64,000 nt of DNA, from the NCBI RefSeq assembly GCF_000504285.1, contig NZ_KI632511.1, forward strand, positions 7,422,154 through 7,486,153, in the 5' to 3' direction. The notes beneath the pieces were generated by a model that was given only the letters and a program-made list of their open reading frames with translations, was not told the DNA's origin and did not search any database. Both the position numbers and the translations under genes were made by a program. Below, piece by piece: positions 2,784 through 58,640 of this stretch (the stretch's first letter is position 1; each line of letters begins with the position of its first letter). This DNA is from Actinospica robiniae DSM 44927 (GTDB taxonomy: Bacteria; Actinomycetota; Actinomycetes; Streptomycetales; Catenulisporaceae).

Positions 2784-3620
2784 CTAGCTCCAGAACTTGA
2801 ACAGCGAAAGACCTTGGCCCGGGCCCGCGTCCGGCTGCTGCCCCCACTGCAGGATGTCCTCCACCAGCGTGGAGAAACCGTCCCGGACCGGCGGGAACGC
2901 GAACAGCAGCAGGAGTACCGCGAGGATCCCGTACGGGCGGATCGGGTCGAGCGCCCGCCGCGTCTCGTAGCGCAGATAAGGCTCGATGATGCCGTATCCG
3001 TCGAGGCCGGGCACCGGGATCAAGTTCAAGATCGCCACTGCCACCTGCAGATAAGCGAAGAATGAGAGTCCCGCCCAGAACGCCCAGTGCGGCGCGAACT
3101 CGTCGATCTGGCTGAAGCTCCCGAAGGAGACCGTCGGCGCGAACAGCGCGATCAGCGCCATCGAGATCCCCGCCGCGGCCACGTTCATCAGCGGCCCCGC
3201 CGCAGACACCAGCGCCGCCCCGCCACGCGTCCGGATCGCAGCCCGGTTCACCAGCACCGACCCGCCCGGAAGGGGGAGTCCTCCGATGATCAGATAAATC
3301 GCAGGGAGGAGCAGTGACAGCACCGGGTTCACGTACCGCAGAGGGTTGAGATCCAGGTAGCCGCGGGCCGCGATCGACGTGTCGCCCCCACGGTGCGCGG
3401 TGTAGGCGTGCGCGAACTCGTGCAGGCACAAGACGGTGAAGAACAGGCCGAAGACGAAGACGAACACCGCGAAGCGGGAGCCCGAGCCCAACCAGGAAGC
3501 CACGCCGCCGGTCACCGTGGCCGCGACCACCACCAGGAACACCGTGCTCACAGTGTTCCTGTGCGACCCGCGGGAGCTGAAGGCGCCCAGCCCCGCTCCA
3601 CGCTGCCCCGGAAAATTCAT
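2784..3620 (-). CDS. M50 family membrane zinc metalloprotease (site-2 protease-like)
   Basis: A 278-residue integral membrane protein with about six hydrophobic segments. HEFAH at residues 69-73 (numbered from an upstream GTG two codons earlier) is the HExxH zinc site, and NLIPVPGLDG near 200 is the second conserved NxxPxPxxDG motif, so both parts of the M50 active site are present. The family cuts substrates inside or beside the membrane; the substrate here is unknown. It lacks PDZ and CBS domains, so it is a minimal M50B-type protein. The ATG at 3620 is preferred over GTG at 3626 because GAGG sits five bases before it. It lies 116 bp after panB's start on the same strand. Confidence 0.85.
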   Translation of the reverse strand: MNFPGQRGAGLGAFSSRGSHRNTVSTVFLVVVAATVTGGVASWLGSGSRFAVFVFVFGLFFTVLCLHEFAHAYTAHRGGDTSIAARGYLDLNPLRYVNPVLSLLLPAIYLIIGGLPLPGGSVLVNRAAIRTRGGAALVSAAGPLMNVAAAGISMALIALFAPTVSFGSFSQIDEFAPHWAFWAGLSFFAYLQVAVAILNLIPVPGLDGYGIIEPYLRYETRRALDPIRPYGILAVLLLLFAFPPVRDGFSTLVEDILQWGQQPDAGPGQGLSLFKFWS

Positions 3621-5877: not shown

Positions 5878-5922
5878 GAACGCGCCGCCACCTTGACAAA
5901 ATCAAAGGTTGGCGGCGCGTTC
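5878..5922 (-). terminator. Long interrupted hairpin downstream of the mgtC-like gene
   Basis: A 13-bp perfect stem (GAACGCGCCGCCA and its complement) is extended by CCTTGA pairing with TCAAAGG through a one-base bulge, around a CAAAA loop. It lies in the 357-bp gap 5731-6087, in the direction expected for a terminator of the mgtC-like transcript. A short second hairpin, TCAGCGCA/TGCGCTGA with a CGG loop, lies at 6065-6083 right after that gene's stop. Nothing else was seen in this gap. Confidence 0.55.
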
Positions 5923-6087
5923 GAAGGATTAGCGCCGGTACGCGTGTCGCCTCTCGGCGAGTGGCTCGGCGCGGCTCCAGCCAAACGGTATTCCGCGCCG
6001 GCTATAGGTGAGGCCCGGGGACATCGTACGTACCGGCCTATCGAGGCTAACACAGGTGAGACGATCAGCGCACGGTGCGCTGAGCGG

Positions 6088-45974: not shown

Positions 45975-46010
45975 AGTGGAGTAGAGTGGGGGAAAGTGGG
46001 GCCTGTCGGG
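45975..46010 (+). promoter_or_regulatory. MraZ operator array in the moxR-mraZ divergent region
   Basis: AGTGGA, AGTGGG, AGTGGG and GTCGGG recur at exact 10-bp intervals (45975, 45985, 45995, 46005), ending 40 bp before mraZ. This is the layout of known MraZ sites: TGGG-type repeats on one face of the helix. TAGAGT at 45982-45987 within the array fits a -10 element, so MraZ would block its own promoter. The rest of the 373-bp region 45677-46049 presumably holds the moxR promoter; I found no further motif. Confidence 0.8.
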
Positions 46011-46049: not shown

Positions 46050-46526
46050 GTGTTCCTCGGCACCTTCCAGCCGCGACTGGACGAGAAGGCACGGCTGATC
46101 CTGCCCGCGCGGCTGCGCGAGGAGGCGGCGCGAGTGGACGGAACGGAGCGGCTGGTGATCACCAAGGGGCAGGAACGCTGTCTCACCGTGTGGCCGGCCG
46201 TGCGCTTCGCCGAACTCGCCGAGCGCATCAGGGCCCTGCCGGCCGCGAACGGCCTCACTTCCCCGAAGGCCGTACGCGACCATCTGCGGGTGCTGTACGC
46301 GAGCGCGAGCGAGCAGGGCGTGGACAAGCAGGGCCGGGTCACGCTCCCGGCCCATCTGCGCGACTACGCCGGGCTGGAGCGCGAGGTGACCGTGATCGGA
46401 GCGGACACCCACTTCGAGATCTGGGACGCCGAGCGCTGGCGGGAGTACCTCGCCGCCCGCGAGCCGGCCTTCGCGGACCTGGCCGAGGAGGTGGCCGCCC
46501 AGCTCGCCGGCGAGTGGCCGGAGTGA
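46050..46526 (+). CDS. mraZ: Transcriptional regulator MraZ
   Basis: 158 residues with two SpoVT-AbrB domains: [23 protein letters not shown] and [23 protein letters not shown]. Conserved first gene of the dcw cluster, it represses its own promoter. GTG at 46050 with GGGAGG six bases before. Its operator is directly upstream. Unusually, the next dcw gene, rsmH, is not adjacent but 10.3 kb away. Confidence 0.96.
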
Positions 46527-46770
46527 GCGCGAGGACGAGCGCAGCGAGCACGGCAGGCTGAACGACGGCGGGCCCCACGCCTCGCCGGATGCAGGTCAGT
46601 GCACGTATTCCCAGCACCGCCGTGGTCGGCGGCCTCCACCCGCTCCCGCGACCGACGCCCCTTCCCCGGCGGCGGGCGCTTGCGAGTCTCCCCCCTGCGC
46701 GGCCGGCAGCAGCGCGCAGGCTGTGAGCGGGCGGGGCCCGGCGCCCGCGGCGGTGCCGCTTTCCGGCTGC

Positions 46771-47073
46771 TCAGCCGGCCCGCGGGCGCGGCGAGGAGAG
46801 CGCCCGGGGGAAGCCCGGCATGACGGACCAGCCGCCCTGCACCCGGATCGCCGCCTCGACCAGGACGCGGTCTCCGCAGTTCTCGTACTGATCGACCGTG
46901 AACGCGGCCCGGTCGATCGCCTCGTTCTCGTTCGAGGTGTGCAGATAGGTATAGGTCGGCCGGTCGTCGGACGTCAGCACCGCCCACGTGAACCGGATCG
47001 TCCAGAGCGGATATGTGTCCGGATAAGGGCCCGGTACGCCGCTGTGCATGGCAGAAAGCTGACGATCATTCAT
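46771..47073 (-). CDS. Hypothetical protein (100 aa)
   Basis: I do not recognise the family. It starts MNDRQLSAMHSGVPGPYPD, has a compact middle (LWTIRFTWAVLTSDDRPTYTYLHTSNENEAIDRAAFTVDQYE) suggesting a small alpha/beta domain, and a Pro/Arg-rich end. No signal peptide, TM helix or cysteine pair. ATG at 47073 has GAGG seven bases upstream, supporting a real gene. It is divergent from a Scr1-type XRE regulator, 116 bp away, and might share its promoter region or be its target. Confidence 0.6.
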   Translation of the reverse strand: MNDRQLSAMHSGVPGPYPDTYPLWTIRFTWAVLTSDDRPTYTYLHTSNENEAIDRAAFTVDQYENCGDRVLVEAAIRVQGGWSVMPGFPRALSSPRPRAG

Positions 47074-47189
47074 TCGGGTACCTCGAACGGGTGGAGGGCT
47101 GATCGTTATGCCTCCATCGTGCCCGCTGCTCGGTACTCTCAGTGGCGGAAACGACCCCACAATCCGACTGTGTGGACAGGACGCGGCGA

Positions 47190-48014
47190 ATGGTCACCAC
47201 CCCTCCCGCTCCGGCGGAGTCCCCGCTCGGGGTATTCGGCAACGAGGTCCGCCACCACCGCGAGCAGATCGCCCGGCTGAGCCAGCGCAAGCTCGGCGAG
47301 CGGATCGGGTATTCGGAACAGGCCGTGGGCATGATCGAGACCGGCCGGCGCAAGCCGACGCTCGAGTTCGCCCGGCTCTGCGACGACGCGCTGGAGACCG
47401 GCGGCCTGTTCGCCCGGCTGTGGCCGATGCTGCGCCACGCCAGCTCCGTGTCCTGGTTCGACGAGTACAACGAGGTCGAACAGCGGGCGATAGCCATCGA
47501 CGGCTGGAACCCCGAGTGGATACCCGGGCTGTTCCAGACGGAGCAGTACGCGCGGGAGCTGTTCGTCTCCTGGCGGGCCCACCCGCCCGAGGAGATCGAC
47601 GCCCTCGTCGACGCGCGGATGAAGCGGCAACGCACGGCTCTGGTTCCCGGCGGCCCCGATATCTGGATGCTGGTGGGCGAGGGCGCACTTCTGCGACGGG
47701 TAGGTGGTCCGGAGGTGTGGCGCGCGCAATTGGAGCGCATGGTGGCGTTGGTGCGAGATTGCCACAGATGGGTTGTGCAAGTGCTACCGTTCGTTGCAGG
47801 TGCACATGCACTTTCCGATGGTGCGATCAATCTGCTCAGTTTCTCGGACGGCGCCGACATGGTGTTCACCGAAGGCCCGGGAGTGGGCCGACTGATCGAT
47901 CGCGCCGAGGATGTGCGGCCCTTCCGGTTCCGTTTCGAGCATGACCGGGCCAAGGCCCTCTCGCCGGAGGAGTCGCTCACCTTCATCCATAACCTGATCC
48001 GGGAGATCCAGTGA
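47190..48014 (+). CDS. XRE-family regulator with DUF5753 (Scr1 type)
   Basis: 274 residues. HTH at about 28-50 (ARLSQRKLGERIGYSEQAVGMIETGRRKPT), followed by the DUF5753 domain (LFARLWPMLRHASSVSWFDEYNEVEQRA, GLFQTEQYARELF, GEGALLRRVGG, HRWVVQVLPFVAGAH...). Such regulators are very numerous in filamentous actinobacteria and are paired with small DUF397 proteins; some pairs affect sporulation and antibiotic production. Start ATG at 47190 (AGGA about nine bases before); a GTG at 47142 with TACTCT just ahead is possible. The stop overlaps the DUF397 start by four bases. Confidence 0.87.
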   Translation: MVTTPPAPAESPLGVFGNEVRHHREQIARLSQRKLGERIGYSEQAVGMIETGRRKPTLEFARLCDDALETGGLFARLWPMLRHASSVSWFDEYNEVEQRAIAIDGWNPEWIPGLFQTEQYARELFVSWRAHPPEEIDALVDARMKRQRTALVPGGPDIWMLVGEGALLRRVGGPEVWRAQLERMVALVRDCHRWVVQVLPFVAGAHALSDGAINLLSFSDGADMVFTEGPGVGRLIDRAEDVRPFRFRFEHDRAKALSPEESLTFIHNLIREIQ

Positions 48015-48241
48015 CCACCCTGAATGATCTCAAAGCCCTGTCGTTCCGAAAGGCGGCGGCGAGCAGCAACGGCGGCAACTGCGTCGAGGTCGCGCTGCTG
48101 CCGGACGGCGGGCGGGCCGTGCGCGACTCCAAGGACCAGGGGGGACCGGTGCTGCGCTTCACCCAAGCGGAGTGGTCGGCCTTCCTCGACGGCGCCAAGG
48201 GCGGCGAGTTCGACGACGAATTCGCCGCCGTGGGCAGCTGA
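48011..48241 (+). CDS. DUF397 protein, partner of the XRE regulator
   Basis: 76 residues: MTTLNDLKALSFRKAAASSNG, then GNCVEVALLPDGGRAVRDSKDQGGPVLRFTQAEWSAFLDGAK, the whole DUF397 domain. GTG at 48011 overlaps the regulator's stop (GTGA), so the two are co-translated. These pairs behave like toxin-antitoxin-type or signalling modules; which protein is active is not known for this copy. Confidence 0.92.
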   Translation: MTTLNDLKALSFRKAAASSNGGNCVEVALLPDGGRAVRDSKDQGGPVLRFTQAEWSAFLDGAKGGEFDDEFAAVGS

Positions 48242-48267
48242 CTGACGACCCGTCGGTCCCGCTGTCC

Positions 48268-48299
48268 GAAGGGCGCTCCCCGTGCGGGGGGCGCCCTTC
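48268..48299. terminator. Terminator after the XRE-DUF397 pair
   Basis: GAAGGGCGCTCCCC and GGGGGGCGCCCTTC pair over 14 bp (one G-T) around GTGC. It separates the regulator pair from the galactan genes. Confidence 0.85.
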
Positions 48300-48391
48300 A
48301 GCGTTCCGGGGCCGGCCGGGGAGAAGGGCGAGCCCGGAGCATCAGACGTCGACAACCCGCCGCGCGCGTGCGACAACGTTCCTGCCCATGA

Positions 48392-48405
48392 TGTGAGCGC
48401 TCCCA
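48392..48405. promoter_or_regulatory. LacI-type operator upstream of the galactanase gene
   Basis: TGTGAGCGCTCCCA, a palindrome centred on AGCGCT, 78 bp before the galactanase start; same type as four other sites in the cluster. Confidence 0.75.
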
Positions 48406-48482
48406 ACAACGGAACGCGTTGGAACTGCCTCACCGTGTCCCGTCGAGCGCCCACGCTAGTCCCCACCATGCCAGGAGCCGCA

Positions 48483-50162
48483 ATGACGCGTCATCCGCAT
48501 CCGCCGTCCCCGTCGATATCCCCTGAAAACACTGGGAGCGCTCCCCACCGCGCCCTCCGGGCTGCCACCCGTTCGGTCTCCGGGCCGGCCCGCCGCGCCG
48601 CGAACCGGCCGCTGCGCGTGCTGGCCGCGTTCCTGCTCGCCTCGGCCACCGCCGTCGGCGCGGCCACGCCGGCCTTCGCCACCACCACGACGCCGACGGT
48701 GACCAACCCCGGGTTCGAGTCCAACGGGGCGGGCACCGCCACGCCGACCGGCTGGACCGCCTCCGGGACGACCGCGGCCTCCTACACCGAGTCGGGCGGG
48801 CGGTCCGGGTCCTACCGGCTCTCGCACTACTCGGCCTCCGCCTACACGGTCGACACGTATCAGACCATTTCGAACATCACCCCCGGCTACTACACCTTCG
48901 GGGTCTGGGTCCGCACCGACGACGTCGGCGGCAGCAACTGGATCACCATGTCCAGCTGCGGCAGCACCGCGCCGAAGACCTACGTGCCGGTCGACACCGA
49001 CGGCAGCTGGCTGCGGATCGTCGACTACGTCTACGTCACCGGCAATACCTGCACGATCGACTTCCACTCCGCCTCGGCGGCCGGCGCCTGGACGAACTAT
49101 GACGACGTCACCTTCGTCTACGGCTCGGCCCCGCTGGCGATCCGCGGCGCCGACGTCTCCAGCCTCTACCGCGGCGAGCAGGACGGCGGCGTCTACTACA
49201 CCAGCTCCGGCACCAAGGAGAACGCGCTGCAGATCATGGCGGGCGCTGGTATGAACTACGTCCGGCTGCGCGTGTGGGTCAACCCCGCGGACGGGTTCGA
49301 CAATGAGACCCAGCTGCTCGCCATGGCCAAACAGGCCTACAGCACCTACGGACAGCAGATCCTGCTCGACTTCCACTACTCCGACACCTGGGCCGACCCG
49401 GGCCACCAGACCGTCCCCGCGGCCTGGGCCTCGGACAGCCTGAGCGCCCTCGAGACGCAGGTCTACAACTACTCCAAGCAGGACGTCGCAGACCTCGTGG
49501 CCCAGGGCACGCCGCCCGCGATGGTCCAGGTGGGCAACGAGATCAACGCCGGCATGCTGTGGAGCGACGGCTCGACCTCGAACTGGTCGCAGCTGGCCGC
49601 GCTGCTCAAGCAGGGCATCGCCGGCGTCAAGGCGGCCGACTCGTCCACCAAGATCATGCTGCACCTCGCGTCCTCGGACAGCCTCTCGACTCTCGAGACC
49701 TGGTACACCAACGCGATCAACTACGGCGTCTCGTTCGACGTCATCGGACTGTCCTACTACGACTACTGGCACGGCCGGCTCGACGTCCTGCAGACCGACC
49801 TCGACGGCCTGGCCGCCAAGTACGGCAAGCAGGTGGCCATCGCCGAGACCGCGTACCCGTGGACGATGACCTCGGGCGACTCGCTGACCCCGTCGTTCGA
49901 CACCTCCAGCGAGCTCGACTCCGGATACGCCGCGAGCGCCTACGGCCAGATGTCGAACTTCCGCGACGTGCTCTCGATCGTGCAGGCCGTGCCGAACGGC
50001 CTCGGGCTCGGCGCGTTCTACTGGGAGCCGACCTGGACCGTGGTCTCCGGCAACGGCTGGGACCCGACCAGTTCCTCCTCGCTCGACGCGTGGGAGAACC
50101 AGGCGATGTTCAACTACTCGGACACCGCGCTCTCGGCGATCAACGACTTCGCCGCCCGCTGA
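48483..50162 (+). CDS. ganB: Secreted arabinogalactan endo-beta-1,4-galactanase (GH53)
   Basis: 559 residues. A long export signal ends near 66 (RPLRVLAAFLLASATAVGAATPAFA). Residues ~70-215 form a beta-sandwich carbohydrate-binding domain (TNPGFESNGAG ... NYDDVTFVYG), similar to the CBM61-type domains often linked to GH53. The GH53 barrel follows from about 219 (IRGADVSSLYRGE): acid/base Glu 353 in QVGNEINAGMLW and nucleophile Glu 455 in AIAETAYPW. It cuts beta-1,4-galactan of plant pectin outside the cell. ATG at 48483 has CAGGAG upstream; one operator lies in front and a second inside codons 17-22. Convergent with the GH42 gene. Confidence 0.92.
   Translation: MTRHPHPPSPSISPENTGSAPHRALRAATRSVSGPARRAANRPLRVLAAFLLASATAVGAATPAFATTTTPTVTNPGFESNGAGTATPTGWTASGTTAASYTESGGRSGSYRLSHYSASAYTVDTYQTISNITPGYYTFGVWVRTDDVGGSNWITMSSCGSTAPKTYVPVDTDGSWLRIVDYVYVTGNTCTIDFHSASAAGAWTNYDDVTFVYGSAPLAIRGADVSSLYRGEQDGGVYYTSSGTKENALQIMAGAGMNYVRLRVWVNPADGFDNETQLLAMAKQAYSTYGQQILLDFHYSDTWADPGHQTVPAAWASDSLSALETQVYNYSKQDVADLVAQGTPPAMVQVGNEINAGMLWSDGSTSNWSQLAALLKQGIAGVKAADSSTKIMLHLASSDSLSTLETWYTNAINYGVSFDVIGLSYYDYWHGRLDVLQTDLDGLAAKYGKQVAIAETAYPWTMTSGDSLTPSFDTSSELDSGYAASAYGQMSNFRDVLSIVQAVPNGLGLGAFYWEPTWTVVSGNGWDPTSSSSLDAWENQAMFNYSDTALSAINDFAAR
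48533..48547. promoter_or_regulatory. LacI-type operator inside the galactanase signal-peptide codons
   Basis: TGGGAGCGCTCCCCA contains the perfect 12-bp palindrome GGGAGCGCTCCC. It is 141 bp from the upstream operator, a distance that would allow looping or a roadblock. Confidence 0.65.
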
Positions 50163-50176
50163 TCCGGCATGGTGAA

Positions 50177-50209
50177 GGCCCTGCGGGATCGTCGTGATCC
50201 CGCAGGGCC
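50177..50209. terminator. 14-bp bidirectional terminator between GH53 and GH42
   Basis: GGCCCTGCGGGATC pairs with GATCCCGCAGGGCC around GTCGT; flanking GAA/TTC adds pairs. The genes are convergent. Confidence 0.9.
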
Positions 50210-50234
50210 CTTCGCCACGTTGTCAGCCCTGTCG

Positions 50235-52265
50235 TCAGCCCTGGAGCTTGATGACGCGCACGGCGCCGCCAGACACCGACGCGGTGCCGGCGAAGGCTTC
50301 GCCGGTGAGCAGATCGGTGCCCGCCGCCGCCACCTCGACCGGCTCGTCCGCGTGGTTGATCGCGAACAGGTAGCGGTCGCCGCCGGCGGACGCCCGCTCC
50401 ACCAGCTCCAGCGTGTCAGGCGTCTGCGTGTCGAACGCGACGCCCGCGTCATGGGCGGCCGCGCGCAGGATCTCGCGCAGGGTGGCCGGATCCGGCGTCG
50501 TCCCCACATACCACGCCGTTCCCGCCTCGACGCGGTGCCGGGTCACCGCCGGGCCGCCCGCCGCGGGGCCCTCGGTAAAGCGGTACTTCGCCTCGGCGCC
50601 GTGCAGCGCTATCTCCTCGGCCCAGATCCGTCCGGTGCCGCCGCCGTCGAACGCGAGCTCGCGATCCCGGTGCAGCGGCAGGAATTCTTCGACGGTCAGG
50701 CCGAGCAGGTCGCGCAGGACGCCCGGGTACCCGCCGAGGTAGACCGCGTCGTCCTCGTCCACGATGCCGGAGAAGTAGGACACGACCAGGGTGCCGCCGC
50801 CCGCCACGTAGTCGCGCAGGTTCTTGGCCCACTGCTCGCGGCACAGGTACATCTGCGGGACCACCACGAGGCGGTAGCCGGACAGATCCGCGCCGGGATG
50901 GGCGAAGTCGACCTGCACGTGCGCGCGGTAGAGCTGCTCGTAGAACTCCAGCTGCCGCGGCTTGAACGCCAGGTCGACGGACGGGCGGAAGACCTGCTCG
51001 AGCGACCACCAGGATTCCCAGTCCCACAGCACGGCGGTGTCCGCCCCGGCCACCCGCGAACCGGCGATCTCGGCCAGCGCGTCGAGGTTCGCGCCGAGGG
51101 CGACCGCCTCGCGCCAGATCCGGGTCTCGGTGCCGCCGTGCGGCAGCATCGCGGAGTGGAACTTCTCGCCGCCGCCGCGCGAGGCCCGCCACTGGAAGAA
51201 CAGCGCGCCGTCCGCGCCCCGGGCCACGTGCGACAGGGTATTGCGGCGCATCTCGCCCGGGCGCTTGGCCAGGTTGCGCGGCTGCCAGCTGACCGCGCCG
51301 GTGGAGTGCTCCATCACCATCCAGGGCTGCCCGCCGCGGATGGAGCGGGTGAAGTCCGCGCACAGCGCCAGCTCGATCTGGTTGTCCGCGGCCTCGGCGG
51401 TCAGGTAGTGGTTGTTCGCGGCGATGTCGACCTCGCGCGCCCAGCTCCAGAAGTCCAGCGCCTTGCAGTTGATCAGCTGGAAGTTGGTCGTCACCGGGGT
51501 CTCGGACCGTCCGGCCTCGGCGAGGCGGGCCTTGATGACGTCGCGCTGGCCGGTGTAGAGCTCGAGCGTGGTGTCCGAGGTGAAGCGGGAGAAGTCCAGG
51601 CGGTGCGCCGGGTTCACGTCCGCCATGGGCGTGCGCTTCGGGGTGTCGATCTGGTCCCACGCCGTGTAGACCTGGCCCCAGAACGTGGCCGTCCACGCGG
51701 TGTTGAGCGCCTCGAGCGTCTGGTACTTCGCCTGGAGCCAGTCCCGGAATGCCGCTGCGGACACGGCGCAGTAGCACGCGCCGGTCGGGGAGCCGTACTC
51801 GTTGTGCACGTGCCACATGGTCACGGCCGGGTGTGCGGCGTACCGCTCGGCGAGCTTGTCCGCGATGCGCAGGCAGGCCTCGCGGTACTCGGGGGAGTGC
51901 GGGCAGTAGGTCTGGCGCGACGAGCCGGCCAGCACGACGCCGTCGTCGGTCACCGGACGCACATGCGGGTACTGCGTCAGGAACCAGTTGGGCGCGGCCG
52001 CGGTGGGGGTGGCCAGGTCCACGTCCACGCCGGCCTCGGCGAGGTGCCCGATCACCTTGTCCAGCAACGAGAAGTCGAACACGCCCGGTTCCGGCTCGAG
52101 CAGCGCCCAGGCGAAGATGCCCAGGTTGACCAGGTTCACCCCGGCTTCGCGCATCAGCCGCGCGTCCTCGGCCCACACCTCCTCGGGCCACTGCTCCGGG
52201 TTGTAGTCCGCGCCGTAGGCGAGCCGGGCGAAGGGGGCGGCCGGCGGGCTGGCCGTGGTGTTCAT
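50235..52265 (-). CDS. Beta-galactosidase, GH42 family
   Basis: 676 residues, three domains: TIM barrel (about 1-390), trimerisation domain (YRLVVVPQMYLCREQWAKNLR onward) and a small beta-sandwich end. Acid/base Glu 156 in HVHNEYGSP, nucleophile Glu 319 in MVMEHSTG; NPEQWPEEVW and TPTAAAPNWF are typical. No signal peptide, so it works in the cytoplasm on imported galacto-oligosaccharides. ATG at 52265 has AAGGAAA. It is divergent from the ABC importer genes, and three LacI-type operators lie in the shared 238-bp promoter region. Confidence 0.94.
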   Translation of the reverse strand: MNTTASPPAAPFARLAYGADYNPEQWPEEVWAEDARLMREAGVNLVNLGIFAWALLEPEPGVFDFSLLDKVIGHLAEAGVDVDLATPTAAAPNWFLTQYPHVRPVTDDGVVLAGSSRQTYCPHSPEYREACLRIADKLAERYAAHPAVTMWHVHNEYGSPTGACYCAVSAAAFRDWLQAKYQTLEALNTAWTATFWGQVYTAWDQIDTPKRTPMADVNPAHRLDFSRFTSDTTLELYTGQRDVIKARLAEAGRSETPVTTNFQLINCKALDFWSWAREVDIAANNHYLTAEAADNQIELALCADFTRSIRGGQPWMVMEHSTGAVSWQPRNLAKRPGEMRRNTLSHVARGADGALFFQWRASRGGGEKFHSAMLPHGGTETRIWREAVALGANLDALAEIAGSRVAGADTAVLWDWESWWSLEQVFRPSVDLAFKPRQLEFYEQLYRAHVQVDFAHPGADLSGYRLVVVPQMYLCREQWAKNLRDYVAGGGTLVVSYFSGIVDEDDAVYLGGYPGVLRDLLGLTVEEFLPLHRDRELAFDGGGTGRIWAEEIALHGAEAKYRFTEGPAAGGPAVTRHRVEAGTAWYVGTTPDPATLREILRAAAHDAGVAFDTQTPDTLELVERASAGGDRYLFAINHADEPVEVAAAGTDLLTGEAFAGTASVSGGAVRVIKLQG

Positions 52266-52316
52266 GGGCGTTTCCTTGCTGCACCGGGGACACGGAAGCG
52301 GACACGGGCTGGTCCC

Positions 52317-52354
52317 GTGAGCGCTCTCATGAAAAGAACAATGGGAGCGCTCAC
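52317..52354. promoter_or_regulatory. Two LacI-type operators in front of the GH42 gene
   Basis: GTGAGCGCTCTCAT (52317-52330) and TGGGAGCGCTCAC (52342-52354), centres about 25 bp apart. Both share the AGCGCT core and probably control GH42. Confidence 0.75.
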
Positions 52355-52402
52355 GGAACGATAACGAAGTAGTAGCACGCCGATGCGGCGGCACACCACC
52401 AC

Positions 52403-52444
52403 TTGACAGTCCGGGATTCTGTCACGAGTCTGGGAGCGTTCACA
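52403..52444 (+). promoter_or_regulatory. Promoter and LacI-type operator of the importer genes
   Basis: TTGACA at 52403-52408 is a perfect -35; a weak -10, GAGTCT, lies 17 bp on (52426-52431). TGGGAGCGTTCACA (52431-52444) overlaps the presumed start site, so repressor binding would block transcription. Confidence 0.65.
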
Positions 52445-52503
52445 ACCGCTGCACCACTGTGAGACTCCTCTAACCCTCTGCTTCACACCGACAGGAGTGG
52501 ACG

Positions 52504-53814
52504 ATGAAGTTCCCTCGCTCTGCGAAGGCCGCCGCGTGCGCCGTCGCCGCGACCGCGCTCGTCGCCGGCTGTTCCTCTTCCTCCAGCCCCAGCGCAGGCA
52601 GCACTGCGGCCTCGAACGAGAAGGTGACACTGACCTTCTGGTCCTGGGTTCCCAACATGGACAAGGTCGTGGCCGTCTGGAACCAGTCGCACCCGAACAT
52701 ACAGATCAAGTTCACCGAGGCCGCTGGCGGCGACGCGGAGCTGGCCAAGCTGCTGACGGCCGGCAAGGCCGGCGACATGCCGGACATGGCGCAGATCGAG
52801 TACCAGTCCCTGCCGACCATGGTGACCAACAACTACCTGGCCGACATCTCGTCGTACGACAACAAGATCAAGTCGGACTTCCCGGCCGGCCTGTGGAACC
52901 AGGTCACCCTCGGCCAGGGCCAGCTCTACGGCGTGCCGCAGGACGCCGCGCCGCTCGCGTTCTTCTACCGCACGGACATCTTCAAGAAGTACAACCTGGC
53001 CGTGCCCACCACCTGGGACCAGTACGCCCAGGAGGCCGTGCAGCTGCACAAGGACGACCCGAGCATCTACATGGGCGACACCGTCACCACCGACCCGGGC
53101 CTGTTCTCCGGGCTGAGCCAGCAGGCCGGCGCGCAGTGGTGGTCGGCCTCCGGCAGCAGCTGGTCGGTGGGCATCAACTCGAGCGCCTCGCAGAAGGTCG
53201 CCTCGTTCTGGGGCAACCTGGTCGAGCAGGGCGCGCTCGACTCGCAGACCGCGTGGACCGCGAGCTGGGACAAGTCCTTCTCCTCCGGCCAGTACGCGTC
53301 CTGGGTCTCCGCCGTGTGGGCGCCCGGTGACCTCGCCTCGCAGGCCGCCAACACCTCAGGCAAGTGGGCCATGGCCGCGCTGCCGCAGTGGGCCGCGGGC
53401 CAGAGCGTCGACGGCGCCTGGGGCGGCTCGGCCACCTCGGTGACCTCGAACTCGAAGCACCCGGAGCAGGCCGCCGAGTTCATCGCCTGGCTCAACGACT
53501 CCGCCCAGGGCACCGACCTGCTGGTCAAGGACGGCAGCATCTACCCGGCCGCGCTCTCGGCCGAGTCCAGCTCCTCGCTGCCGGCCCAGACCTTCATGAA
53601 CCAGCCGGACTTCTACACCCTGGCCAAGCAGTTCTCCGCCAGCACCGCGGCCGCCACCTGGGGCCCGGACGTGAACGTGGCCTACAGCGACTTCAGCGAC
53701 GACTTCGCCGCGACGGTCAAGACCCAGTCCGGCTACCTCGGCGCGCTGGACAAGCTCCAGTCCTCGGTGCTCTCGGACATGAAGTCGGCCGGCTTCACCG
53801 TCGCCGGGTCCTGA
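52504..53814 (+). CDS. ABC sugar-binding lipoprotein (galacto-oligosaccharide import)
   Basis: 436 residues. Signal peptide with lipobox LVAGC (Cys 23) and a Ser-rich linker, then a family-1 solute-binding fold (VTLTFWSWVPNMDKVVAVWNQSHPNIQIKFTE, PDMAQIEYQSLPTMVTN, WGGSATSVTSNSKHPEQAAEFIAWL). Binds an oligosaccharide outside the membrane for the two permeases that follow; galacto-oligosaccharide is inferred from GH53/GH42. ATG at 52504 with CAGGAG. Confidence 0.92.
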   Translation: MKFPRSAKAAACAVAATALVAGCSSSSSPSAGSTAASNEKVTLTFWSWVPNMDKVVAVWNQSHPNIQIKFTEAAGGDAELAKLLTAGKAGDMPDMAQIEYQSLPTMVTNNYLADISSYDNKIKSDFPAGLWNQVTLGQGQLYGVPQDAAPLAFFYRTDIFKKYNLAVPTTWDQYAQEAVQLHKDDPSIYMGDTVTTDPGLFSGLSQQAGAQWWSASGSSWSVGINSSASQKVASFWGNLVEQGALDSQTAWTASWDKSFSSGQYASWVSAVWAPGDLASQAANTSGKWAMAALPQWAAGQSVDGAWGGSATSVTSNSKHPEQAAEFIAWLNDSAQGTDLLVKDGSIYPAALSAESSSSLPAQTFMNQPDFYTLAKQFSASTAAATWGPDVNVAYSDFSDDFAATVKTQSGYLGALDKLQSSVLSDMKSAGFTVAGS

Positions 53815-53833
53815 CCCCGGCCAGGTCTGACTG

Positions 53834-54823
53834 ATGAGTACCGTCATCTCCCTGCACGACGAGCAGCCCGCCGCGTCCGCGTCCCGGACGCGGCGGGTCC
53901 GCCCGGGCAGACGGCACAGCCCCGCGCCGCGCCGTTCGCCCTACCTCTTCGTCGCCCCCGCCGTCCTGCTGTTCGTCGCCGTCTTCCTGCTGCCGCTCGG
54001 CTACACCGTCTACCTCAGCACGCAGAAGACCCAGGTCTCCGGCCTGGGCCTCGGGGCCAGCCAGCGCAAGCAGGTCTCCGCCGGATTCGCCAACTACACC
54101 ACCGTCTTCCACGACGGCGAGTTCTGGCAGAGCGCGGTGCGGGCCCTGATCTACGGCTGCATCCTGATCCCGATCATGCTCGGCCTGGCCGTCGTGTTCG
54201 CGCTCATCCTGGACGCGCAGCGGGTGCGCCTGCAGCGCTTCGGCCGGATCGCCATCTTCCTGCCCTACACCGTGCCCACCCTGATCGGCTCGATCATCTG
54301 GGGCATGATGTACCTGCCCGCGTTCTCGCCGATCAACTCGACCCTGCAGGTGTTCGGCATCCCCGGGATCGACTTCTTCGGCCAGCACATCGTGTTCCTG
54401 TCCGTCGCCAACATCGGCGTGTGGGGCGGCACCGGATTCAACATGATGGTGCTCTACACCTCGCTGCGCTCACTGCCGCAGGAGGCGTACGAGGCCGCCC
54501 GGCTGGACGGCGCGAACGAGCGGCAGATCGCGCTGCGGATCAAGCTCCCGATGATCCGGCCGGCCGTGATCATGACCGCGATCTTCTCCACCATCGCCAC
54601 GCTGCAGGTGTTCAACGAGCCCTACGCCATGCACCAGATCGCCTACGGCGGCGTCTCGACCACCTGGACCCCGCTGATGACGATCTACCGCGACACCTTC
54701 ACCGCCCACGACATCTACCTCGGCTCGGCCGAGTCGATCGTGATCGCGGTGCTGATGTTCGCGCTCTCGGTCGCCGTGCTGCGGCTGACCAACCGGCAGA
54801 TCTTCGGAGGGGAGGCGAAGTGA
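53834..54823 (+). CDS. ABC sugar permease (MalF/UgpA type)
   Basis: 329 residues with six TM helices after a basic N-terminus. The EAA loop EAARLDGANERQIALRIKLP, which contacts the ATPase, lies near residue 220. 19 bp after the binding-protein gene, same operon. An ATPase gene is absent from the cluster, so it probably uses a shared MsiK-like ATPase encoded elsewhere. Confidence 0.92.
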   Translation: MSTVISLHDEQPAASASRTRRVRPGRRHSPAPRRSPYLFVAPAVLLFVAVFLLPLGYTVYLSTQKTQVSGLGLGASQRKQVSAGFANYTTVFHDGEFWQSAVRALIYGCILIPIMLGLAVVFALILDAQRVRLQRFGRIAIFLPYTVPTLIGSIIWGMMYLPAFSPINSTLQVFGIPGIDFFGQHIVFLSVANIGVWGGTGFNMMVLYTSLRSLPQEAYEAARLDGANERQIALRIKLPMIRPAVIMTAIFSTIATLQVFNEPYAMHQIAYGGVSTTWTPLMTIYRDTFTAHDIYLGSAESIVIAVLMFALSVAVLRLTNRQIFGGEAK

Positions 54824-54893
54824 GCGAGCTTGCGAGCGAACCATTCAGCACAGTGCGCTCATGCACGCGCCAGCACATCGTCGAGGTGACCGC

Positions 54894-55766
54894 ATGAGCT
54901 TTTTGACCACTGCTTCGCAAGGTGTCGCGCCGCGCCAGGGCCGGCGCACCTCCATCGTGCCGACCGCGGTGTTGCTGCTCGGCGCGCTCTACACGCTGCT
55001 GCCGATCGTCTGGCTCCTGGTCGCCACGACCAAGACCAACACCCAGTTGGACAGCATGGCGCCGTTCCGCCCGGCCGGCTCGTTCGTGAGCAACTTCGAC
55101 GGGCTCACCTCGTACGACGGCGGCGTGTTCTGGACCTGGCTGGCCAACACCGCGCTGTACGCGGGCGGCGGAGCGATCCTGTCCGCCATCGTGTCCGCGA
55201 TGGCCGGGTACGGCTTCGCCAAGTACCGCTTCCGCGGCAAGGGCTTCCTGTTCACCATGATCCTGGTCGGGATGCTCGTGCCGGCCGTGGTGCTCGCAGT
55301 GCCGCAGTACCTGCTGGTGGCCAAGATCGGGCTCGCGAACACCTACTGGGCGGTGCTGATCCCCTCGATCATCTCGCCCTACGGCATCTACCTGGCCCGG
55401 ATCTACGCCGGCGCCTCGGTGCCGGACGAGGTGCTCGAGGCCGCGCGGATGGACGGCTCGCCGGAGTGGCGCACATTCCTGCGGGTGAGCCTGCCGATGA
55501 TGACGCCCGGTCTGGTGACCATCTTCCTGTTCCAGTTCGTGGCGGTGTGGAACAACTTCCTGCTGCCCTGGCTGATGCTCAGCAGCGAGAACAAGTACCC
55601 GTTGACGGTGGGCCTGTTCACCCTCCTCGACGCGGGCACCTCGCAGCCCTCGCTCTACAGCCTGGTCATCACCGGTGCGCTGCTCTCCATCCTGCCGCTG
55701 ATCCTGCTCTTCTTCCTGCTCCAGCGTTTCTGGCGGGTCGACCTGACGGCGGGGTCGGTAAAGTGA
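54894..55766 (+). CDS. ABC sugar permease (MalG/UgpE type)
   Basis: 290 residues, six TM helices. EAA loop EAARMDGSPEWRTFLRVSLP near residue 190; GMLVPAVVLAVPQYLLVAKIGL precedes it. ATG at 54894 with GAGGTGA upstream; an earlier ATG at 54861 lacks a binding site. 70 bp after the first permease. Confidence 0.92.
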   Translation: MSFLTTASQGVAPRQGRRTSIVPTAVLLLGALYTLLPIVWLLVATTKTNTQLDSMAPFRPAGSFVSNFDGLTSYDGGVFWTWLANTALYAGGGAILSAIVSAMAGYGFAKYRFRGKGFLFTMILVGMLVPAVVLAVPQYLLVAKIGLANTYWAVLIPSIISPYGIYLARIYAGASVPDEVLEAARMDGSPEWRTFLRVSLPMMTPGLVTIFLFQFVAVWNNFLLPWLMLSSENKYPLTVGLFTLLDAGTSQPSLYSLVITGALLSILPLILLFFLLQRFWRVDLTAGSVK

Positions 55767-55825
55767 GCCGCGCGTGGCCGAGGCACCGGCGCGGTGCGGG
55801 CCTGAACATCGTGATGGGGGCATAA

Positions 55826-56848
55826 GTGGTCGTCGACAGCGGGCGGAGGCGCCCGACGATCGAGGACGTGGCGGCGGCCGCGGGCGTGTCCCGCGGCACC
55901 GTCTCCCGCGTGCTCAACGGCGGGATCAACGTCTCGCCGTCGGCGCTCGCCGCCGTGAACAAGGCGATAAAGCAGACCGGGTACGTGGTCAACACGCACG
56001 CCCGTTCGCTGGTGACGCAGCGTTCGGGCTCGGTGGCCTTCATCCTGTCCGAACCGCAGGAGAAGTTCTTCGAGGACCCCAACTTCCAGGTGCTGCTGCG
56101 CGGATGCACCCAGGCCCTGGCCGCCCACGACATCCCGCTGCTGCTGTCCATCGCGGACAGCGAGCCGGACCTGGAACGGGTGGTGCGCTTCATCTCCGGC
56201 GGCCACATCGACGGCGCGCTGCTGGTCTCCACGCACGCGGGCAACCCGGTGATAGGCCGGCTGGCCTCGCTCGGCATCCCGACCGTGGCCTGCGGCCTGC
56301 CGATCGGGCACGAGCAGGAGCTGGCGTACGTCGCGGTGAACGAGGCCGAGGGCGGCCGGCTGGCCACGGCGCACCTGGCGAGCCTGGGCCGGCGCCGGAT
56401 CGCCACCGTCACCGGTCCGCTGGACACGCCCGGCGGCCGGGACCGGCTGGCCGGCTACCGGGAGGCGCTGGGGCAGGCCGGGATCGGGTTCGACCAGAGC
56501 CTGATCGCGCACGGCGACTACACCCGGCTGTCCGGCCAGGCCGCCATGGAGGACCTGCTGCGCCGCACGCCCGACCTCGACGCCGTGTTCGTCGCCTCGG
56601 ACCTGATGGCCCGCGGCGCGCTGGACGCGCTCGAGCGGGCCGGGCGCTCGGTGCCGGGCGACGTGGCCGTGGTCGGGTTCGACGACTCGCTGGCCGCCTC
56701 GGCCGGCCGGCCCGGGCTGACCACGGTGCGCCAGCCGTACAAGCGGGTGTGCGAGGAGATGGTGCGGCTGCTGCTCGCGCTGCTCGACGGGCAGGAGCCG
56801 GCCGCCGTCATACTGCCGGTGGAGCTGGTGCGCCGGGAGACCGCCTGA
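55826..56848 (+). CDS. LacI-family repressor of the galactan genes
   Basis: 340 residues. HTH and hinge in TIEDVAAAAGVSRGTVSRVLNG (11-32), then a sugar-binding domain (SVAFILSEPQEKFFEDPNF ... VFVASDLMARGALDALERAGRSVPGDVAVVGFDDS). It most likely binds the five AGCGCT-centred palindromes at 48392, 48533, 52317, 52342 and 52431, and is released by a galactose or galactobiose signal. GTG at 55826. 59 bp after the second permease and probably in its operon, giving feedback control. Its stop is 22 bp before rsmH. Confidence 0.9.
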   Translation: MVVDSGRRRPTIEDVAAAAGVSRGTVSRVLNGGINVSPSALAAVNKAIKQTGYVVNTHARSLVTQRSGSVAFILSEPQEKFFEDPNFQVLLRGCTQALAAHDIPLLLSIADSEPDLERVVRFISGGHIDGALLVSTHAGNPVIGRLASLGIPTVACGLPIGHEQELAYVAVNEAEGGRLATAHLASLGRRRIATVTGPLDTPGGRDRLAGYREALGQAGIGFDQSLIAHGDYTRLSGQAAMEDLLRRTPDLDAVFVASDLMARGALDALERAGRSVPGDVAVVGFDDSLAASAGRPGLTTVRQPYKRVCEEMVRLLLALLDGQEPAAVILPVELVRRETA

Positions 56849-56855
56849 TCACTTG

Positions 56856-56861
56856 TAGAGT
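56856..56861 (+). promoter_or_regulatory. Candidate -10 element of rsmH
   Basis: TAGAGT, the same hexamer as in the mraZ promoter, ends eight bases before the rsmH ATG. No ribosome binding site precedes rsmH. It lies directly after the LacI gene. Confidence 0.5.
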
Positions 56862-56869
56862 GCTCCGGG

Positions 56870-57925
56870 ATGGACGGCGCCGGAGCACGGCGCGGGCGAG
56901 AACGAAGGCGGCCGCTGGTGGACGGGCTGGATTCGGCCGAGGCAGCGGAGGCCCCGAAGGCTCCGCACGTCCCGGTCATGCTGACCGAGTGCGTCGAAGC
57001 GCTCGACGTCGCGGACGCGGCTCCGCGTGCCGTGCTGGTGGACTGCACCCTCGGCCTCGGCGGGCACAGCGAGGCGCTGCTCGAGCGCTACCCGGGCGCG
57101 CGGCTGTTCGGACTCGACCGCGACCCGGAGGCGCTCGCCCGCTCCCGGGCCCGGCTGGCCCGCTTCGGCGACCGCTTCGAGGCGGTGCACGCGGTCTACG
57201 ACGAGCTGCCGGACGTGCTCGCCGAACGGGGCGTCAAACGCGTCCACGGCGTGCTGTTCGACCTCGGGGTCTCCTCCATGCAGCTCGACATGCGCGAGCG
57301 CGGCTTCGCCTACGCGTATGACGCCCCGTTGGACATGCGGATGGACCAGACCGCGTCCCTGACCGCGTACGAGGTCGTCAACGGCTACGGGGTGAACGAG
57401 CTGACCCGGATCCTGCGCGACTACGGCGAGGAGCGCTTCGCCCGGCGGGTGGCGCAGGCGATCGTGGCCGAGCGGCAGCGCGCGCCGATCGAGCGCACCG
57501 GGGTGCTGGCCGAGCTGGTGCGCACCGCGATCCCGGCGGCGACCCGGCGTACCGGCGGGCATCCGGCCAAGCGGACGTTCCAGGCCCTGCGGATCGAGGT
57601 GAACGGGGAGCTCGAGGTGCTCGGCCGGGCGATCCCGCGCGCGGTGGACCTGCTCGCCGTCGGCGGTCGCGTGGCAGTGCTCTCCTACCACTCGCTCGAG
57701 GACCGCTGGGTCAAGCGCGTGTTCGCGGCCGGCGCGCAGTCCACGGCGCCGCGCGGGCTGCCGGTCGCGCCGCCCGGGACCGAGCCGGTGCTCCAGCTGC
57801 TCACCCGGGGAGCGCAGGAGCCGACGACCGAGGAGATCGAGGCCAATCCCCGGGCTGCCTCGGCGAAGTTCCGGGTGGCCGAGCGGGTCCGGCCGGGGTC
57901 GGTGCAGGCCCGGCTCGAGGTGTAG
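56870..57925 (+). CDS. rsmH: 16S rRNA m4C1402 methyltransferase RsmH
   Basis: 351 residues (older name MraW). [13 protein letters not shown] begins the core after a 30-residue extension; [15 protein letters not shown] is the SAM loop; [39 protein letters not shown] and [15 protein letters not shown] are the remaining family motifs. Methylates the ribosomal P site. The ATG at 56870 has no Shine-Dalgarno; TAGAGT directly upstream suggests a leaderless mRNA, so the downstream dcw genes need not depend on mraZ transcription. Confidence 0.95.
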
Positions 57926-58031: not shown

Positions 58032-58640
58032 GTGGCTGAGCGACCGTCGAGACAGGGGCAGGGGCCGCGGCTCGCCGTGATCGAGGGCTGGGCCGGGCGG
58101 CGGTCGGCGATCCCGTTCGCCCTGCTGGTGCTCGGCGTGCTGCTGGCCGGGCTGATCGGGCTGCTGTCGCTGAACACGGCGATGGACGAGAACTCGATCC
58201 GGACGCAGCAGGCCGAACAACGCCAGGCGCAGTTGAACGACCGGGCGCAGCAGCTCTCCCAGCAGCTGTCCGGACTCTCCGGACCGGCCGCGCTGGCCTC
58301 GGCCGCGGCCGCGCAGGGGCTCGTGCCGAACCCGCAGCCGGCGTTCCTGAACCCGACCACCGGCGCCGTGCTGGGCTCGCCGCGCCCCGCGCCGACCCCG
58401 TCGCCCCCGCCGAAGCCGAGCCTCAAGCCCAGCGCGACCGCGTCCGGCTCCGCATCGGCCGGTACGACCGCCACGGCGAGCGCGACGGCGGGCACCACGG
58501 CCACGGCGAGCACGACAGCGTCCGCCGGCACGGCCACGACGGCGACGGTGAAGACGACGGTGAAGTCGCTGACGTCTCCGAGCCCGGCCCCGCACGCGAA
58601 ACCGACGCCGAGTCACTCAGCATCCGGGAGCCCGCGATGA
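58032..58640 (+). CDS. ftsL: FtsL-like septum protein
   Basis: 202 residues: a short cytoplasmic end, one TM helix (about 27-47, AIPFALLVLGVLLAGLIGLLSL), a coiled coil (NSIRTQQAEQRQAQLNDRAQQLSQQLS) and a long low-complexity tail rich in Ala, Thr, Ser and Pro. Topology and place between rsmH and ftsI identify the divisome protein FtsL, which recruits FtsI and FtsW. The tail is longer than usual. GTG at 58032, with GATACT eight bases upstream as possible -10. Its stop overlaps ftsI (ATGA). Confidence 0.82.
   Translation: MAERPSRQGQGPRLAVIEGWAGRRSAIPFALLVLGVLLAGLIGLLSLNTAMDENSIRTQQAEQRQAQLNDRAQQLSQQLSGLSGPAALASAAAAQGLVPNPQPAFLNPTTGAVLGSPRPAPTPSPPPKPSLKPSATASGSASAGTTATASATAGTTATASTTASAGTATTATVKTTVKSLTSPSPAPHAKPTPSHSASGSPR

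Follow-up and report, generated by a model that had tools for sequence, protein, structure and literature searches.

The dcw cluster of Actinospica robiniae raises the question of how mraZ and rsmH (mraW), a very stable gene neighbourhood lying within 0.5 kb in 62 named actinomycete loci, came to be separated by a galactan-use module, and whether the septum genes behind rsmH have come under sugar control as a result. Our study analysed a window of 64 kb (the whole stretch of DNA considered here) from the A. robiniae genome (G000), which is a single contig of 9,918,887 bp. The explanation that we favour, with fair confidence, is that the family's galactan module moved in the genus ancestor into the gap between mraZ with its RNA element and rsmH, so that the MraZ link was cut and the septum genes did not pass under sugar control. 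The genus, a small group of soil actinobacteria related to Catenulispora, was represented by three species (A. robiniae, G001 and G002), and the family outside it by 11 genomes, ten of a genus taken as Catenulispora (including G003) and one of a third, sister genus (G004). A wider survey of the gap covered the 62 actinomycete loci showing both mraZ and rsmH, and an order-level survey of mraZ covered 294 sampled genomes.

In A. robiniae, approximately 10.3 kb lie between the end of mraZ at 46526 and the start of rsmH at 56870 or 56918, of which GTG 56918 is the better supported by alignment. Both genes occur once in the whole genome, and there is therefore no second intact mraZ–rsmH locus. The same gap measures 84–498 bp in the 62 actinomycete loci and 238–376 bp in the 11 genomes of the family that belong to other genera, so that relatives have about 0.3 kb at the place where A. 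robiniae has a metabolic module. In G002 the gap is 9.66 kb and holds the same galactan module, and the gene order from GH53 to rsmH is identical to that of A. robiniae and lies on one contig, which argues that the A. robiniae arrangement is neither chance nor misassembly. In G001 the gap is split over contigs, with mraZ and rsmH on different ones; GH42, the sugar-binding protein (SBP) gene, the two permease genes, lacI and rsmH share a contig, and GH53 is on another. The order lacI–rsmH is common to all three species. The mraZ–rsmH split is a genus-level trait, derived within the family and not recent, which is complete in two species and contig-split in the third.

Apart from the insert, the dcw order mraZ-rsmH-ftsL-ftsI-murE-murF-mraY is met in A. 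robiniae, with ftsI, murE, murF and the start of mraY in order downstream of rsmH. The ORF at 58032–58640 has no Pfam match and is assigned as ftsL only by its homologues at the same place in relatives. Upstream, genes for MoxR, DUF58 and a TgpA-type transglutaminase lie on the minus strand, divergent from mraZ. The first-pass annotation of this DNA had described the cluster as split by about 10.3 kb with its flanks in the usual order, and the coordinates, the single copies and the distances in relatives bear this out. It had also reasoned that a second intact locus would change the meaning of the split, and that the same genes in a large clade would make it an old lineage trait; no second locus exists, and the trait is indeed old, but it is confined to a single genus, and no outgroup shows the split.

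Table 1. Features at the mraZ–rsmH locus of A. robiniae (positions in the 64-kb window)
Feature	Position	Strand	Evidence or remark
MraZ box upstream of mraZ (AGTGG, three direct repeats, period 10 bp)	45975..45999	+	0 mismatches
mraZ	46050..46526	+	PF02381 3.3e-34; TIGR00242 over cut-off; single copy
mraW RNA element (RF01746-like), extra internal hairpin	46601..46767	+	covariance model R1
small hypothetical ORF	46771..47073	-	no family match
XRE / DUF5753 regulator (Scr1-type)	47142..48014, start may be 47190	+	PF19054, HTH_31
DUF397 partner	48011..48241	+	PF04149 8e-21
terminator-like hairpin after DUF397	48267..48300	+	folding z -3.2
LacI-type operator upstream of GH53	48392..48405	+	same sequence in G001 and G002
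GH53 endo-beta-1,4-galactanase, probably secreted	48483..50162, start may be downstream	+	PF07745 2e-110
second LacI-type operator of GH53	48533..48546	+	near-palindrome match
strong hairpin between convergent GH53 and GH42, bidirectional terminator-like	50168..50230		folding z -5.1
GH42 beta-galactosidase	50235..52265	-	PF02449 1.5e-137; translation
divergent GH42/SBP control region	52316..52444		operators 52316, 52342, 52431; TTGACA -35 at 52403
sugar-binding lipoprotein (SBP) of ABC importer	52504..53814	+	PF01547; GanS-like
ABC permease 1	53834..54823	+	PF00528
ABC permease 2	54861..55766	+	PF00528
LacI-family regulator of galactan module	55826..56848	+	PF00356, PF13377
TAGAGT, -10-like	56856..56861	+	8 nt before possible leaderless ATG 56870; weak, inferred from sequence only
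terminator-like hairpin between lacI and rsmH	56860..56888	+	9-bp stem
rsmH (mraW)	56870..57925, alternative start GTG 56918	+	PF01795 5e-114; TIGR00006 over cut-off; single copy

The galactan module, putatively LacI-controlled, is complete in A. robiniae, comprising GH53, GH42, SBP, two permeases and LacI (Table 1). The genes of the insert are those that the first-pass annotation had named, but GH42 is not co-oriented with the others; it lies on the minus strand, and a plus-strand ORF over it (50169–52364) was rejected as a shadow frame without a family. With this orientation the module is not a single long operon: GH42 and SBP diverge from a promoter region, and GH53 and GH42 converge on a terminator. 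Rfam gives a chance miRNA match on the hairpin between these two convergent genes. The module resembles ganSPQAB-type galactan/galactooligosaccharide systems with LacI-family regulators in its GH53, GH42, SBP, two permeases, LacI and palindromic operators; it differs in its position inside the dcw cluster and in its SBP, which scores far below the NCBIfam GanS equivalog cut-off.

The left part of the insert is not constant across the genus. An orthologue of the XRE–DUF397 pair was found at the mraZ–rsmH spot only in A. robiniae; G001 is without one, and the nearest in G002 lies elsewhere with 53 % identity. At the place of the pair G002 has a MerR-family regulator on the minus strand (L117 3250–4083), which shows this part of the insert to be variable. 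As judged from this distribution, the XRE–DUF397 pair is a separate, later insert in A. robiniae. G001 harbours a transposase, read by eye from the sequence as IS30-like, in the GH53/GH42 convergent terminator (L132 1872–3148 and L119 8260–8513). The gap could accordingly be viewed as a hotspot for unrelated arriving genes, with the galactan module as one passenger of several and without regulatory meaning, as the hypothetical gene and XRE–DUF397 pair of A. robiniae and the MerR gene of G002, all between the RNA element and GH53, and the IS30-like element between GH53 and GH42 in G001 would suggest. We regard this as unlikely, since the block GH42-SBP-permease-permease-lacI-rsmH is intact through the genus and its operators are conserved; the hotspot reading is compatible with relocation of a family-owned module for the left part of the insert only. 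The first-pass annotation had proposed a search for insertion boundaries; target-site repeats of at least 9 bp were not found at the boundaries of the A. robiniae insert. Insertion by a mobile element was rejected on this result, on the lack of a transposase in the A. robiniae insert and on the position of the IS30-like element of G001, which is inside the module and not at its ends.

The consequences for MraZ were examined through its binding site. The MraZ box is the only triple AGTGG match in the 64-kb window at up to two mismatches, a tolerance at which 14 of 100 shuffles also give a match. It is identical in the three species of the genus and near-identical in G003 and G004. As the only triple box is before mraZ, no MraZ site remains close to rsmH and its downstream genes, and the earlier claim that the insertion uncouples mraZ from its downstream genes is upheld to this extent. 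Since 10 kb, including minus-strand genes and the terminator-like hairpins at 48267–48300 and 50168–50230, separate rsmH from mraZ, control of rsmH by MraZ in cis is unlikely.

The insertion also parted rsmH from a structured RNA, a point that had been missed in the first-pass annotation. The mraW RNA element adjoins mraZ and is 10.1 kb from rsmH in A. robiniae and 9.4 kb in G002, so that the insertion lies between the element and rsmH. Rfam RF01746 matches in the mraZ–rsmH gap of relatives, with scores of 32–54 for the sister-genus elements, but gives no match up to E 1 in positions 46400–57100 of the window, where the element is below the Rfam gathering cut-off (50 bits). Our own covariance model (R1), built from 26 relatives with the genus left out, found it in A. 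robiniae with 28.0 bits and E 8e-4 (346-kb search), in G002 at 3080–3228 with 28.8 bits and in G001 at 5886–5999 with 32.3 bits, always next to mraZ. A second model (R2), built without any family member, matched only the core in the window (46638–46687, 21.3 bits, E 0.011). The R2 scores were 40–62 bits in the sisters, 29 in G001, 26 in G002, 21 in the window and 17–51 in Streptomyces, as though selection were relaxed wherever one of the two partners has been lost. For the conserved helix and CUUCCCC core of the motif, CTTCCCCGG is kept in all three species. Pairing across the aligned set, which includes two minus-strand palindromic matches and consists mostly of members that trained the model, was 96.5 % with 33 double-sided changes, a level reached in 0 of 500 shuffles. 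On these models, the mraW RNA element is present in the genus in a weakened, but apparently still folded, form.

The mraW RNA motif was listed by its discoverers as a candidate only, and its function was left open (PMC2864571). As in the published motif, the element of this genus is an actinomycete structure beside mraZ, recognized here by covariance model and pairing, and the published motif lies between mraZ and mraW/rsmH; the genus differs in that its element is next to mraZ only, 10 kb from rsmH, is below the Rfam threshold and has an extra internal hairpin. The UpsM leader of the Rhodobacter sphaeroides dcw cluster is likewise a structured RNA tied to mraZ transcription (PMC5089854), although UpsM is the 5′ leader of mraZ and the element described here is 3′ of it. 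It is possible, though we put it forward only tentatively and short of even confidence, that the mraW RNA element is not an rsmH leader and works on the mraZ transcript or at the mraZ–rsmH junction; in this genus it would have remained joined to mraZ throughout the history of the genus.

Control of the module itself can be read from its operators. Two near-palindromes of the form TGGGAGCGCTCCCA precede GH53 (48392 and 48533) and two lie between GH42 and SBP (52342 and 52431), giving four matches in the 64-kb window against 0.7 expected, and a further variant lies at 52316. G002 has five such palindromes against 0.15 expected, they recur in G001, and the SBP site is also present in G004. The operator at 52431 stands behind a TTGACA with a 17-bp spacer, an arrangement shared by A. 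robiniae, G001, G002 and G004. These sites suggest that GH53 and GH42/SBP are repressed by the module's own LacI. A scan of the window placed LacI-type operators upstream of GH53 and GH42/SBP only, and none between lacI and rsmH.

Between lacI and rsmH there is instead a hairpin, the stem of which measures 9 bp in A. robiniae and G001; in G002 the stem is 16 bp long and unrelated in sequence. Stems of at least 9 bp occur in 1.7 % of 70-nt windows of the 64-kb window, and stems of at least 14 bp in 1 % of those of the G002 contig. The folding z-scores are -1.7 for A. robiniae (only moderately strong), -3.2 and -5.4. The stem-loop is not followed by a U-tract, which keeps its reading as a terminator inferential. 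Intrinsic terminators of high-GC actinobacteria often have no U-tract. The hairpin looks like a probable terminator, the structure of which was kept while its sequence changed. As for a promoter, the -10-like TAGAGT of A. robiniae (Table 1) has a similar counterpart in G002, TAGACT, 7 nt before the rsmH GTG; a clear -35 for an rsmH promoter was not found in A. robiniae, and a scan for sigma-70-type promoters gave nothing in the region. The mraW gene has its own transcription start site (TSS) downstream of the RNA motif in Corynebacterium diphtheriae (PMC5784534) and inside the 3′ end of the motif in Corynebacterium glutamicum (PMC3890552). By analogy with these two species, independent transcription of rsmH is plausible in A. 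robiniae.

These observations bear on the earlier claim that septum genes stand right behind a sugar-induced operon, which is weakened by the opposite direction of GH42, the restriction of operators to GH53 and GH42/SBP, and the hairpin. Sugar-driven septum genes are not borne out by the anatomy of the locus. In its full form, the claim would have the septum genes co-transcribed with the galactan operon (SBP-permease-permease-lacI-rsmH-ftsL-ftsI), with galactan raising RsmH, FtsI and MurE and the hairpin only tuning read-through. lacI and rsmH are on the same strand, 21–69 nt apart in A. robiniae, their order is kept in all three species, and no strong separate rsmH promoter was found. Co-transcription nevertheless seems quite improbable in view of the structure-conserved hairpin at the junction, the TAGAGT/TAGACT sites near the rsmH start and the separate mraW TSS of C. 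diphtheriae. Furthermore, a repressible sugar promoter alone would be lethal for essential genes without the sugar, so that some other promoter must exist.

The origin of the module was traced through its gene trees and through a second locus. The trees of SBP and LacI have the same branching as that of rsmH, ((G000,G001),G002),G004. LacI of A. robiniae is 96 % identical to that of G001, 86 % to that of G002 and 79 % to that of G004, and the identities to G004 of LacI and SBP (68 %) are in the same range as that of rsmH (71 %). Horizontal transfer of the module directly into dcw in the ancestor of the genus, to which the patchy occurrence of such modules in the family (several Catenulispora are without a close SBP homologue) and their frequency in Streptomyces might point, is very improbable, being disfavoured by these identities and by gene trees that agree with the organism tree and place G004 as sister. 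In G004 the module's neighbours are galK-galE-galT and the gene for a DeoR regulator; recD2 lies further along, and galK is identified by operon position and homology rather than by a family match. The galactan module next to these genes in G004 has a tandem duplicate of GH42 (L158 5800–10089). The interval between DeoR-galT-galK and recD2 (82 % identical) in A. robiniae spans 8.4 kb and does not contain the module. The gal locus thus carries the module in the sister genus but not in A. robiniae, which is best fitted by relocation within the lineage. There is no outgroup at the gal locus to polarise a move from gal to dcw, and other modules in the family and order sit elsewhere. Descent of the galactan module with the family, and its movement within the lineage into the dcw cluster, is the simplest reading of these sequences and the one that fits best.

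Several findings together lead to relocation as the explanation: the order of the genes and their single copies, the presence of the arrangement throughout the genus, the agreement of the gene trees, and a gal locus that lacks the module in A. robiniae but has it in the sister genus. In the ancestor of the genus, a family-owned module of GH53, GH42, ABC importer and LacI repressor would have moved into the gap that has mraZ and its mraW RNA element on one side and rsmH on the other. With galactan or galactooligosaccharide present, LacI would come off its GH53 and GH42/SBP operators, allowing expression of the module. The mraZ transcript may end within the RNA element at its 3′ side or beyond it, short of the minus-strand genes, and transcription from lacI would mostly stop at the lacI–rsmH hairpin. 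Expression of rsmH-ftsL-ftsI-murE-murF-mraY would depend on a promoter situated at the end of lacI or slightly within it. Under this model, autoregulation would remain as the main role of MraZ, and its cis action on the division genes would be lost. The likely outcome of the insertion is a severed MraZ link, with the septum genes still free of sugar control.

Other lineages have disrupted this cluster in different ways. The split dcw cluster of Neisseriaceae is similarly fragmented, with an intact mraW-ftsL-ftsI-murE-murF sub-cluster and altered mraZ regulation; however, mraZ was lost in the longitudinally dividing species (PMC9395523), whereas the genus studied here keeps mraZ and its operator and gains a sugar module. 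Within the same order, mraZ was found in 17 of the 294 sampled genomes, of which 14 are family members and three are others. Streptomyces and near genera are without mraZ, but in many of them a mraW-RNA-like element is retained immediately upstream of rsmH (L012–L035, L039–L048, L057, L072, L073). That Streptomyces might lack the RNA element as well as mraZ was suggested by empty Rfam searches of two Streptomyces loci, and was rejected on the element-like R1 matches before rsmH in many. The MraZ–rsmH link is broken in Streptomyces as in A. robiniae, but there mraZ is absent (as in 277 of the 294 genomes) and the element stays with rsmH.

In summary, the arrangement in this genus suggests that essential septum genes can sit 21–69 nt behind a sugar regulator gene if insulated. 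With the RNA element parted from rsmH, the genus allows one to ask which gene, mraZ or rsmH, the element serves, and, if the tentative reading of the element given above holds, it would represent a natural separation experiment for this RNA. A genus living with a broken mraZ–rsmH junction also suggests that MraZ need not be linked to the genes that it normally controls.
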